Source: Lachnospiraceae bacterium 28-4
GTDB taxonomy: Bacteria; Bacillota; Clostridia; Lachnospirales; Lachnospiraceae
DNA: 64,000 bases
Reading direction: 5' to 3'
Assembly (NCBI GenBank): GCA_000403275.2
Contig: KE159599.1
Span: forward strand, 1,039,548 to 1,103,547
Shown: piece by piece, positions 25,277 through 29,231 of the stretch
Position numbering within the stretch: the first letter of the stretch is position 1
How the letters are laid out: the number at the start of each line of letters is the position of its first letter
Program-made: the position numbers and the translations under genes
The notes under the pieces: generated by a model
The model's input: only the letters and a program-made list of their open reading frames with translations
Databases searched by the model: none
Told to the model about the DNA's origin: nothing

Positions 25277-26215
25277 TTAATCTTCCTCATCCCTGCGCCT
25301 TGCCAGCGAATTCTGCACACGGGTGTACAGTTCCTGCGCCGCGTTATATCCCATCTTCTTCTGGCGGTGGTTGACCGCCGCGGACTCACATATGATCGCA
25401 AGATTACGTCCCGGACGAATCGGGATATTGTGGCATACGATCTTATTGCCCAAATACTCCGTATACTCTTCTTCCAGGCCAAGCCTGTCATATTCCTTAT
25501 CTTTATCCCAGTCCTCCAGGCGGATGACAAGGTCGATATTCTGTGTATCCTTTACGCTGGATACACCGAACAATGTCTTTACATCCACAATGCCAATGCC
25601 CCGCAGCTCGATAAAATGCTTCGTAATATCCGGCGCAGTACCGATCAGCGTATCATCGCTTACTTTTCTAATTTCCACCACATCATCCGTCACGAGGCGG
25701 TGGCCTCTCTTAATCAACTCCAGAGCCGCTTCCGATTTACCGATACCGCTCTCACCCGTAATCAGAACACCTTCGCCGTATACATCCACCAAAACTCCAT
25801 GAACGGAAATGCACGGAGCGAGTTTTACGTTCAGCCAGCGGATAATCTCTGCCGTAAATGCGGAAGTCGCTTTTTTCGTCATAAGCAGCGGTACTTCATT
25901 GGCTATAGCCATCTCCAGGAACAAAGGATCCGGCTGCAGCTCACGGCAGAATACGATGCCCGGAATATCACAGGAAAGTAGTTTCGTATAAATCTCCTTT
26001 TTTCTTGCCTCCGGCAGACCCAGCATATAAGTATATTCCACAAAACCAATGATCTGCATACGAGTCGCCTCAAAATGTTCGAAATACCCCGCCATTTGCA
26101 ACGCGGGCCTGTTGATATCCGGCTGGGTAATTTTCACCTTAGTAATATCCAGCTCCGGTGTCAAATTCTCCAGCTTCATTTTTGCGATAATGTCCTTCAA
26201 ACTTACGCTAGCCAT
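25277..26215 (-). CDS. hprK: HPr kinase/phosphorylase
   Basis: 312 residues. The P-loop GESGIGKSEAALELIKRGH (about 154-172) and the HprK signature IELRGIGIVDV...LFG are intact, as is VHGVLVDVYGEGVLI. It phosphorylates Ser46 of HPr and of the Crh-like protein when glycolytic intermediates are abundant, and reverses this in starvation. AAAGGAGAAGGTTT precedes the ATG. Its likely substrate with Glu at position 15 is encoded 4 kb downstream on the same strand. Confidence 0.95.
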   Translation of the reverse strand: MASVSLKDIIAKMKLENLTPELDITKVKITQPDINRPALQMAGYFEHFEATRMQIIGFVEYTYMLGLPEARKKEIYTKLLSCDIPGIVFCRELQPDPLFLEMAIANEVPLLMTKKATSAFTAEIIRWLNVKLAPCISVHGVLVDVYGEGVLITGESGIGKSEAALELIKRGHRLVTDDVVEIRKVSDDTLIGTAPDITKHFIELRGIGIVDVKTLFGVSSVKDTQNIDLVIRLEDWDKDKEYDRLGLEEEYTEYLGNKIVCHNIPIRPGRNLAIICESAAVNHRQKKMGYNAAQELYTRVQNSLARRRDEED

Positions 26216-26325
26216 AAACCTTCTCCTTTTCCTTTATTATAAATTTTTTCTTTTATTTCACGGTGTTCTCTGAATATAAATTTTACCATAGAAAGATGGG
26301 AATGGCAATAAAAGCGAAGGGGGAC

Positions 26326-26663
26326 GGAACCAATTTTTATGAGCGCCCTGTCGGACCAAGGCAAACGAGTCTGGGGGCTGGGAAGAGGGCCGGTGTGGGA
26401 GCGGTTTTCTGCCGGAGCTTCCAATCAGATTTCACTAATGAAATGGGCATATGGTGTTCACCCGGACGAGTCGGAAGCAACGGCATCCATGCCTATGCTT
26501 CCTGGCCCGCCATCCTTGGCGGGCTTACTCTGGTTATTGACCATTTCATAAGTGAAATAACTGATTGTACGCAACGGCAGAAAACCGCTCCCACACCGAC
26601 CCTCTTCCCAGCCCCCAGACTCGTTTGCCTTGGTCCGACAGGGCGCTCATAAAAATTGGTTCC
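26326..26663. repeat. 338-base giant inverted repeat (89-base arms, one mismatch)
   Basis: 26326-26414 and 26575-26663 are inverse copies with one difference (C in the left arm at 26390, where the right arm calls for T). The repeat continues inward with weaker pairing: CAATCAG...TTTCACT-ATGAAATGG near 26422-26445 against 26541-26567. The core holds two small hairpins, GGCATCCATGCC and GCCCGCCATCCTTGGCGGGC. It is GC-richer than the flanks and contains no believable gene. It lies between the end of the ECF transporter operon and the start of hprK. It could be a structured RNA, a MITE-like element or a barrier to transcription. Confidence 0.92.
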
Positions 26664-26686
26664 TTTGTGTCTAGTCTATATCCAAC

Positions 26687-27520
26687 TTACAAAAACGGAT
26701 TATAGTAGCGGCTGCCGTCCCGGAAAGTGATGAGAAGATCCAGTGCGATAATGGCTACGGCAAGGCCCATGGCAATCCAGTCTTTTTTCTGGAATTTCCG
26801 CTGGACATACCATGTCCGTTTGTTTTTTTTGCCGAAGCCTCTCAGTTCCATTGCATTGCTGACGGTTTCAATCCGGTTCAGACTGGATAGAACCAGCGGG
26901 AGAAGGATGGCTGCGGAGTTTTTGATCCTCGTCCAGAATTTGTCTTTACCGGAAAGCTCTATCCCCCTGGCCTGCTGGGCCTGGCTGATATTGGTGAAAT
27001 CCCTTTGCACGTCGGGGATATAACGCAGCGCAAGGCTGACCGAATAGCCAATGCGGTAGCTGACGCCGATACTTGCCAGGCTTGCTGCAAACTCACTTGG
27101 GTCGGTACAGGCGATGAACAGCAGGGCTACCGGCACTACGCATACTACCTTCATCGTCATATTAAAATGATAAAAAAGCTGCTCCAGCGTAACCGTATAA
27201 GGACCTGCAACCGTCAGCAGGACTGTGCGGCTCCTATACAGGCCGACACCGTATTCCGGCGAAAATAAATAGACAAACAAATTATTCATCAGAAGAAAAA
27301 CGGCTGCCAGTCCCAGAACGAAACGCACTTCCCGGAAACGCACTTTGCTGATCTTGAAAATGACAAAGCTTCCTGCCAGCATGCAGAGCAGCACCCTGGT
27401 ATCATATGTCACCATTGCCGCCACGCTCCATAGAAGGAAAAATACAAGCTTCGTCGTCCCGGTCAGTTCATGCACGAGGCTTTTTCTCCTGATATAACTC
27501 ATAATCGCAACTTTTGCCAT
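26687..27520 (-). CDS. ecfT: ECF transporter T component (EcfT)
   Basis: 277 residues from MAKVAIMSYIRRKS, with GAAGGAGGCGCGCTGAC upstream. It lies two bases after the ATPase stop. It has five to six membrane segments and the two coupling Ala-Arg-Gly-type motifs (QQARGIEL and AMELRGFGKKNKRTW) that contact the ATPases. It forms the energy-coupling module with the fused ATPase and the S component at 29371. Confidence 0.93.
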   Translation of the reverse strand: MAKVAIMSYIRRKSLVHELTGTTKLVFFLLWSVAAMVTYDTRVLLCMLAGSFVIFKISKVRFREVRFVLGLAAVFLLMNNLFVYLFSPEYGVGLYRSRTVLLTVAGPYTVTLEQLFYHFNMTMKVVCVVPVALLFIACTDPSEFAASLASIGVSYRIGYSVSLALRYIPDVQRDFTNISQAQQARGIELSGKDKFWTRIKNSAAILLPLVLSSLNRIETVSNAMELRGFGKKNKRTWYVQRKFQKKDWIAMGLAVAIIALDLLITFRDGSRYYNPFL

Positions 27521-27521
27521 G

Positions 27522-29231
27522 TCAGCGCGCCTCCTTCCGTTCATATCCGATAAACCGCTCCGTAAATGCCTGTGGATCTTCCACTCCGCAGGAAACGCTT
27601 AAAGTATACAGGCTCGTTTCCTTCAGATTCGCTTTTTCCACCAGGGAAGGGCTGTTCAGCACATGCGCCGCACTGGTATCCGCCAGCAGTTTCCCTTCGG
27701 AAAAAACAATGGCTCTCGGCGTATACTCCAGCATCAGATGCATATCGTGCGTCACCATCAATATTGTATAACCCTGGCGATTCAATTCCACCAGGAACTC
27801 CATGATTTCCGTATAATGAAAATAGTCCTGCCCCGCCGTAGGTTCGTCCAGAATCAGTATCTGAGGACGGCATACGAGAATGCTGGCGATCGTCACACGT
27901 TTTTTCTGTCCATAAGAGAGTGCGGATACCGGCCATTTTCGGAAGGGATACAAGCCGCAGATCTTCAACGTTTCCTCCACGCGTTCCTTTCGTTCCTCCT
28001 CTGTCATTCCCATCTTTAGCAATGCCAGTTCCACTTCATCCCATATCATCGGCTTGGATATCATCTGGTTGGGGTTCTGCATTACGTAACCGATTTTTTC
28101 CGCCCTCTCCCTGATCGTATCATTCAGCAGATCCCTCCCCTCCAGGAGAATCCGTCCCGATACGGGAAGTTCAAAACCGCAGATCAGCTTGGCCAGCGTA
28201 CTTTTTCCCGCGCCGTTCCGCCCCACAATGCTTATCATTTCTCCCTTATATATCGTAAAATCAATATCTTCCAGAGTATTTTTCCCTTGCTGGTAACCAA
28301 AGGTCAAATGTTCCACCTGCAGCAGCGGTTCTGCTTTCCCGGACTGCATCTTCCCCTCTTTCCCGCTTTGATACCAGGTTCTTACCATCCCTTTCTGCTC
28401 GTCCGTCAGTTTCAGGCTGTCCACATGGGCAGGGCTCATCTCAGGAGTCACCGTTACCCCTGCATATTTCAGCGCGGTCAGATACAGCGGTTCCCGGATG
28501 CCATGCTCTGTCAGCAAAGCGGAACATAACAGCTCTTCCGGCCTCTGATCCGCTACAATTCTTCCCTCATGCATAAGGACGATGCGATCCACGCTCCGCC
28601 AAAGCACGTCTTCCAGTCGATGTTCAATAATAATCACTGCCGCTTTTGTCCGTTCCTGTACTTTTTCGATCAGTTCAATCGTATTTTTCCCGGCCGCAGG
28701 ATCCAGATTCGCCAAAGGCTCATCGAACAAAAGAACCTTTACTTCGTCTACCATAACGCCCGCCAGGCTGACCCTCTGTTTCTGTCCGCCGGAAAGCTCA
28801 TGGGGTGCATGCTGTAAATGATGATCGATGTCCACCAGCCGGGATACTTCGTCCACCGTCAGTTTCATCTGTTCCTGGTCAACGCATTCATTTTCCAAAG
28901 CAAATGCGATATCTTCCCCGACCGTCAATCCGATAAACTGCCCGTCCGTATCCTGAAGCACCGTGCCCACCGAACGGCTCATCTCAAAAATGCTGCTCTC
29001 TTTCACTTCTTTTCCGTCCACAAGCAGTTTTCCCGTACTCTGCCCCGGATAAGCAAAGGGAATCAATCCATTTATGCAGCTTGCAACCGTGCTTTTGCCG
29101 CTGCCGGAAGAACCCGCCACCAGCACCCTTTCTCCCGGATAAATATCGAGATTGATCTCATATAGGGTTGGTTCCGCCTGTGCCGTATATTGAAATCCAA
29201 AATTCTGAAACGAAATAATGGGTGAACTCAT
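27522..29231 (-). CDS. ECF transporter ATPase with two fused ABC domains
   Basis: 569 residues from MSSPIISFQNFGFQYT. The start has AAAAGGAGTAAACCC upstream, and 41 upstream codons are rejected. NBD1: Walker A GSSGSGKST, signature LSGGQKQR, Walker B VLLFDEPLANLDP. NBD2: Walker A GRNGAGKST, signature LSYGQKKR, Walker B ILILDEPTAGQD. Most ECF systems encode two separate ATPases; here they are one protein (as in YkoD). It powers uptake of the vitamin or other small substrate captured by the S component. Confidence 0.94.
   Translation of the reverse strand: MSSPIISFQNFGFQYTAQAEPTLYEINLDIYPGERVLVAGSSGSGKSTVASCINGLIPFAYPGQSTGKLLVDGKEVKESSIFEMSRSVGTVLQDTDGQFIGLTVGEDIAFALENECVDQEQMKLTVDEVSRLVDIDHHLQHAPHELSGGQKQRVSLAGVMVDEVKVLLFDEPLANLDPAAGKNTIELIEKVQERTKAAVIIIEHRLEDVLWRSVDRIVLMHEGRIVADQRPEELLCSALLTEHGIREPLYLTALKYAGVTVTPEMSPAHVDSLKLTDEQKGMVRTWYQSGKEGKMQSGKAEPLLQVEHLTFGYQQGKNTLEDIDFTIYKGEMISIVGRNGAGKSTLAKLICGFELPVSGRILLEGRDLLNDTIRERAEKIGYVMQNPNQMISKPMIWDEVELALLKMGMTEEERKERVEETLKICGLYPFRKWPVSALSYGQKKRVTIASILVCRPQILILDEPTAGQDYFHYTEIMEFLVELNRQGYTILMVTHDMHLMLEYTPRAIVFSEGKLLADTSAAHVLNSPSLVEKANLKETSLYTLSVSCGVEDPQAFTERFIGYERKEAR

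Follow-up and report, generated by a model that had tools for sequence, protein, structure and literature searches.

The 338-base inverted repeat at 26326–26663 of the window (by which we mean the whole 64,000-nucleotide stretch of DNA analysed) is one copy of a mobile element whose RNA sense is the minus strand. Taken as a whole, it is best explained as a non-autonomous, MITE-like DNA transposon that carries an RNA core, would keep its arms alike at the DNA level and has loops predicted to bind CsrA, a reading to which we assign a probability of about 0.6. The element consists of a 160-nt TwoAYGGAY RNA between arms of ~100 bases, many of which end in CACGGAAATCAATTTT; its insertion duplicates nine target bases, and at least 62 copies are present in the genome. 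What appears to be new here is a known RNA family as the core of a transposable element, with arms apparently maintained at the DNA level.

In the window copy, the outer 89 bases of the two arms, 26326–26414 (the 3′ arm in RNA sense) and 26575–26663 (the 5′ arm), pair with each other with a sole difference at 26390, which forms a G-U pair in the minus-strand RNA. A repeat finder drew the arms at 26326–26428 and 26561–26663 (103 nt, 95% complementary) and placed an inner paired block at 26429–26449 and 26538–26558. The repeat next to hprK that an earlier note had described from the letters is thus real, as is the second paired block inward of its arms. The same note held that either strand would yield a very long RNA hairpin, which agrees with folding of the repeat against 100 shuffles (z −24.7 for the plus strand and −29.0 for the minus strand), and that no gene lies inside, which agrees with the lack of a Pfam match at E 0.001 in any of the three open frames (70–129 aa) that overlap the repeat. 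On either side lie hprK (25277–26215) and an ecfT/CbiQ-type gene (26687–27544), both on the minus strand. Remnants of the terminal inverted repeat of the family (consensus CACGGAAATCAATTTT) were recognised by comparison with this consensus at both ends: GACGGAACCAATTTT at 26323–26337, which is crossed by the alignment of the left flank with the sister species (G004), and AAAATTGGTTCCTTT at 26652–26666. These ends match the consensus at 12/16 and 11/16 positions, just under the threshold of at least 12/16 at both ends. A 9-base target duplication was looked for at this copy and is not recognisable.

Copies at other loci, for which the earlier note had proposed a BLAST search, are plentiful. The genome (4.28 Mb, 7 contigs) contains 62 RF01731 matches, all over the cut-off, and 68 BLAST matches of the window element, some of them counted on both strands; the possibility that nothing similar exists elsewhere can be discarded. 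An assembly artefact, which the note had also considered, is excluded because dozens of copies share the same architecture and the sister species carries an element at the same site. The stretches examined contained 77 core matches, some partial (83 with further stretches), which belong to three core subtypes by best BLAST query. Long complementary arms, defined by a local alignment score of at least 40, accompany 70 of the 77; six cores lack them and one lies at an edge. Many arms end in CACGGAAATCAATTTT, which is found at 12/16 or better at both ends in 36 of the 70 arm-bearing copies, while the other 34 do not have recognisable ends on both sides. Directly outside the 36 elements, 9-base direct repeats have a mean identity of 0.546 compared with 0.264 after shuffling (z 10.5), whereas duplication lengths of 4–8 and 10–12 reach z 3.7 at most (the next best being 10, with z 3.7); in eight of the 36, the flanking 9-mers are identical at 8 or 9 of 9 positions. 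The same length stands out in the sister species: 18 of its 33 complete copies entered the test and gave z 7.9 for nine bases, with no other length above 0.9, and 8 or 9 of 9 duplication bases are identical in seven of the 18. The statement that there is no clear target duplication therefore holds for the window copy but not for the family.

Comparison with the sister species provided one clean empty site, C3:321592, where TTCTTCAAT occurs once in G004 and flanks the insertion on either side in the window's genome. The right end of this copy lies ~30 bases past its arm, and it was accordingly unmatched in the 9-base duplication test. For 24 of the 83 copies both flanks lay within the G004 DNA compared; a core match was found there in 11 and none in 13. 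Inspection of 12 of these 13 sites revealed, besides the clean empty one, mostly other intergenic sequence, and at C2:246456 the matching G004 site holds a truncated core. With common ends, a 9-base duplication and an empty site in a relative, the family is MITE-like. ERIC, NEMIS/Correia and bcr elements are bacterial MITEs or palindromic intergenic repeats, and the present family resembles this class in being small, non-coding, intergenic and multicopy, with terminal inverted repeats and a target duplication. It differs in that the arms account for more than half of the element and are largely unrelated from copy to copy although the two of one copy match, and in that the core is a covarying RNA that occurs in other genera of the family Lachnospiraceae. 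Literature searches for MITEs in Lachnospiraceae and for Kineothrix repeats returned nothing relevant among the matches listed.

A transposase gene with the same ends was sought around 12 loci with unpaired end motifs, and no convincing inverted partner was found within ~3 kb; the best partner score was 25, for a GC-rich match at L087. ISLre2/UPF0236 elements were rejected as the autonomous partner, since they also make 9-base duplications but have other ends; the window's genome contains three identical insertion sequences of this type (L251–L253), and each is flanked by a separate 9-base duplication. Carriage by phages or plasmids was rejected too (no match at E 1e-5 among 50,697 phage and 72,556 plasmid records), and the copies show no replication-strand bias by GC skew. 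Growth of the palindrome into its flanks was dismissed on a set of 41 elements with recognisable ends, in 27 of which the inverted identity halts at the element end and in two of which it continues for at least six bases. L088 (C1:1396341–1396723), outside this set, shares the ends and has 102-base arms that pair perfectly, yet no core was matched in it; on either side its inverted repeat reaches 14 or more bases into the flank. L085, of 215 bp, has the same ends and part of a core. In genome G001, tiny palindromes at C17:18454–18539 and C367:7477–7543 have facing end motifs 67–86 bases apart, with no room for a core; the end motif (up to two mismatches) occurs there 63 times forward and 56 times reverse, compared with 50 and 43 in the window's genome.

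The core of the window copy (26415–26574, minus strand) scores 79.3 bits on the TwoAYGGAY RNA model (RF01731; gathering score 43), covers positions 1–168 of the 168-position model, and is the single Rfam match over the gathering score in a cmscan of all 64 kb. Its inner block forms a helix with its 5′ side at 26538–26558 and its 3′ side at 26429–26449, corresponding to helix 2 of the core alignment. The two small hairpins mentioned in the earlier note proved to be the GGA-loop hairpins of this RNA: the first at 26505–26524, with the loop AAGGAU at 26512–26517, and the second at 26473–26502, with the loop AUGGAU at 26485–26490. The window core has both hairpins and fits the AYGGAY pattern, with the first loop departing from it at the Y. 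Hence, of the structured RNA, MITE and regulatory element that the note offered as alternatives, the first two both apply, as a known structured RNA within a MITE-like frame. TwoAYGGAY was described in 2010 as a structured RNA without an assigned role in the consulted part of Weinberg et al. (PMC2864571). Compared with that description, as far as the excerpt reaches, the RNA here forms the centre of a transposable element present in many copies, between ~100-base arms outside the Rfam model; mobility is not mentioned in the consulted passages that name the RNA.

Compensating changes, the other check proposed earlier, are frequent in the core. Among 22 aligned cores, drawn from ten genomes of the genus, both sides have changed with pairing kept at 33 of 37 consensus pairs, 96.1% of cells are paired compared with 34–46% when the partners are slid, and the GGA of both loops is invariant. 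Selection on an RNA helix favours G-U over A-C mismatches on the transcribed strand. At the consensus pairs of the two core hairpins, in 115 cores from the window species and G004 (seven short ones left out), G-U cells outnumber A-C cells by 37 to 10 (p 1e-4), although these cells are related rather than independent and the excess is smaller by pair columns (G-U in 14, A-C in 9). A cruder hairpin count, which included three duplicates and other loops, gave 21 to 6, and A-N-GGA loops alone gave 8 to 5. The long core helices show 34 G-U and 23 A-C cells (p 0.18), while the pooled arms (G-U 182, A-C 192) differ from the hairpins with p 9e-5. Folding the opposite strand of the same core alignments yielded 9 G-U and 15 A-C cells, so that the hairpin excess is not created by the folding program. 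The core behaves as an RNA because it combines strong covariation with a G-U preference of its hairpins on the RNA strand, and its retention as RNA on one strand is supported by these sequence patterns, mainly the covariation.

RF01731 is present in 12 of 16 genomes of the genus and, at E 0.001, in 39 of the 250 family genomes sampled (one for each genus), with 37 of the 39 over the cut-off; ten candidates were scored per genome, and copy numbers from this sample are lower bounds. Among 36 loci from other genomes, seven have long arms by the same threshold, including G004 and some in other genera. In G015, another species of the genus, different inverted ends, AATTTTATGTACAATT, enclose eight of the 13 copies (two of the eight are near contig ends and possibly represent one locus). 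Therefore, the RNA core does not seem to be tied to a single transposon frame.

Binding of CsrA by TwoAYGGAY was proposed earlier from motif matches, according to the part of PMC4333381 consulted. In the family sample, CsrA is over the cut-off in 38 of the 39 genomes with RF01731 and in 88 of the 211 others (Fisher 6e-12, with genera that are not independent), and the window's genome has it as well. However, all 39 RF01731 genomes have flagellin, which tracks the RNA equally well, and flagellin occurs without CsrA in only four of the sampled genomes (the RNA is present in one of them, G207), so that a link to CsrA is inseparable from one to motility. Inside the genus, RNA and CsrA are not associated (CsrA in 9 of 12 RF01731 genomes and in 3 of 4 others), with G003 (97% complete) as a clear exception. 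Because of these two results, CsrA binding by the core is only plausible, as judged from co-occurrence and loop sequence.

Role as a CsrA sink is our best functional guess. The core would be transcribed by read-through or from some promoter, its two A-N-GGA loops would then bind a CsrA dimer, and the copies jointly could serve as a CsrA sink spread over the genome or as cis sites within the RNAs that contain them. CsrB carries many CsrA sites in one or a few sRNA genes. The present RNA would resemble the CsrB/RsmY-type CsrA-sequestering sRNAs of Gammaproteobacteria in its GGA hairpin loops and its co-occurrence with CsrA, and would differ from them in having two putative sites per RNA and scores of dispersed copies. 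A broader picture, which we put forward only tentatively, is that the transposon spreads a putative CsrA-binding RNA: each jump would add a two-site sink, copy number would set the strength of a global regulator, the differing frames of related species would have taken up the same core, and palindrome proofreading at the DNA level would keep copies whole while arms drift. If this were true, every jump would place a further two-site CsrA sink in a new promoter context. The presence of TwoAYGGAY on a transposon in the window species and its sister, together with CsrA in 38 of 39 sampled genomes, makes the function directly testable. The position of copies relative to genes argues against a simple cis role: for 82 of the 83 copies (one lies at an edge), a crude ORF caller gave neighbours in the orientations (−,+) 29, (−,−) 24, (+,+) 22 and (+,−) 7, that is, 29 divergent and 7 convergent gaps and co-directional gaps split 24 to 22 with no strand preference. 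No consistent orientation or position relative to a gene was found over these 82 copies.

The strongest competing explanation is a purely selfish MITE, with a core that is a passenger or a transposase-binding structure unrelated to CsrA, and we regard it as a real possibility, if a doubtful one. It accommodates the dispersal of the copies with their target duplication and unbiased orientation to genes, as well as same-ended elements without a core match or with a partial core (L088, L085 and the closely facing G001 motifs), and the CsrA evidence is weakened by its link to motility and by the lack of association within the genus. Nevertheless, a mere passenger would not readily account for the strong covariation, the invariant GGA loops and the G-U preference of the hairpins, nor for the same core between the other ends in G015 or the near-constant company of CsrA in genomes with the RNA.

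The arms follow a different pattern from the core. The best match of an arm is its partner in the same copy in 142 of 144 cases here and in 63 of 66 in G004, and the median best score is 27 to another copy and 84 to the own partner; between copies, arm sequences are for the most part unrelated. In seven copy pairs with alignable arms, 89 columns have changed in both arms and 58 in one only, and gaps are common to both arms in 47 columns and single in 18. Arm sequence thus drifts freely from copy to copy and from one species to the other, but inside a copy the two arms remain alike. Their mismatches have no strand bias (G-U 127 and A-C 128 here, 55 and 64 in G004), and there is no sign of RNA-level selection on the arms. 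The mismatches are also clustered (38 adjacent compared with 18.7 expected, sd 3.8; 118 within five bases compared with 77.7, sd 6.0), which fits correction in tracts. Arm pairing seems to be kept at the DNA level, since arms match their own partners best and lack a G-U over A-C bias, and template switching is most likely responsible, as far as such patterns can tell. Of the two explanations of the near-perfect arms that had been suggested, recent origin or strong upkeep, the second is favoured, and what is kept up is apparently the palindrome in the DNA rather than a giant RNA helix, given the missing G-U preference. Comparing arms with core hairpins inside a single element also gives an easy means of telling upkeep of a palindrome at the DNA level apart from selection on RNA, which is difficult where covariation is taken to prove that an RNA is functional.

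Template switching homogenises the arms of inverted repeats and inverts their spacers, according to passages of PMC8604942 and PMC8794818, and insertion sequences can be inverted through recombination of their terminal inverted repeats, according to a passage of PMC3004938. The matched arms, clustered changes and flipped spacers predicted from the excerpts of these three papers are all seen here. The systems in those excerpts are short repeats in yeast, RNA genes and IS ends, whereas here the process would act on arms of ~100 bases, in a single family with scores of copies. In the element, template switching during replication (or gene conversion from arm to arm) would copy one arm onto the other, and the same process could flip the core.

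Sites shared with the sister species illustrate this behaviour. At the window site, G004 has the same neighbours (ecfT protein 97% identical, flanking DNA 87–91%) and an element in the corresponding position, its core oriented as here, with a core identity of 0.74. The arm identities between species are 0.54 and 0.53, compared with 0.50 and 0.48 after shuffling, whereas within each species the two arms have a self-identity of 0.95–0.96. In both species the matching left flank continues into the element's left end, which suggests a single insertion common to both; the right ends are not alignable. At C1:921605 the core is flipped and the arms can be aligned between species (0.66 and 0.61, shuffled 0.47). 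At C2:659610 (L090, C2:659505–659860, compared with L217:14914), the insertion point and ends are the same and the core subtypes differ, as if the interior had been swapped, and this site is not explained by vertical descent with arm drift. It speaks for another source of arm identity, namely ectopic gene conversion between copies or fresh copying of arms at each transposition in place of switching within a copy. We consider this unlikely: no arm donor is visible because hardly any copy has arms like those of another, as the median scores of 27 and 84 indicate, and the flipped core at C1:921605 and the clustered arm mismatches fit switching within a copy.

The hairpin as a functional unit fares considerably worse. 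That the whole 338-nt structure serves as double-stranded RNA (for example, as an RNase III substrate or an antisense source), with arms kept by RNA selection, would suit the extreme folding of both strands and the complementary arms of 70 of 77 copies, yet is very unlikely given arm mismatches balanced between G-U and A-C in both species, next to 37 and 10 in the core hairpins of the same strand, and given the same RNA without long arms at 29 of the 36 loci of other genomes.

A simple terminator is rejected, as the arms are far too long for one, in line with the earlier note, and no terminator-like site was found at the repeat. Most improbable of all is a role at this one site, acting at the 3′ end of ecfT or regulating hprK from upstream (as a terminator, attenuator or riboswitch): the repeat does lie between the two genes in their own direction and adjoins a promoter-like hprK site, and Rfam types RF01731 as cis-regulatory, but over the 82 copies the RNA points either way about equally often where both neighbours run in one direction, no terminator-like site was found, no ecfT match was found near hprK in relatives (tblastn E 1e-10, 80 hprK loci, within the flanks covered), and the 10 of these 80 loci that were scanned gave no Rfam match. 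The promoter-like site (TTGCCA-17-TAAAAT, 26280–26308, minus strand) lies upstream of hprK just outside the element, in a stretch largely conserved in the sister species. The adjacency of ecfT and hprK (25277–27544 in the window) is also present in G004.

Copies that lie less than 700 bases apart are arranged head to head, with their RNA 5′ ends facing, in all six pairs of the window's genome (C1:1031193/1031551, C1:1195132/1195566, C2:131321/131680, C2:679154/679555, C3:179916/180341 and C3:653047/653433) and in the one pair of G004 (L217:2556/3006). Such pairs may reflect a common divergent promoter or an insertion preference. At least seven further inverted pairs are arranged the same way (C3:333495 in the window's genome, one each in G005, G125, G076 and G247, and two in G023), and one direct pair, in G205, occurs among the matches listed.
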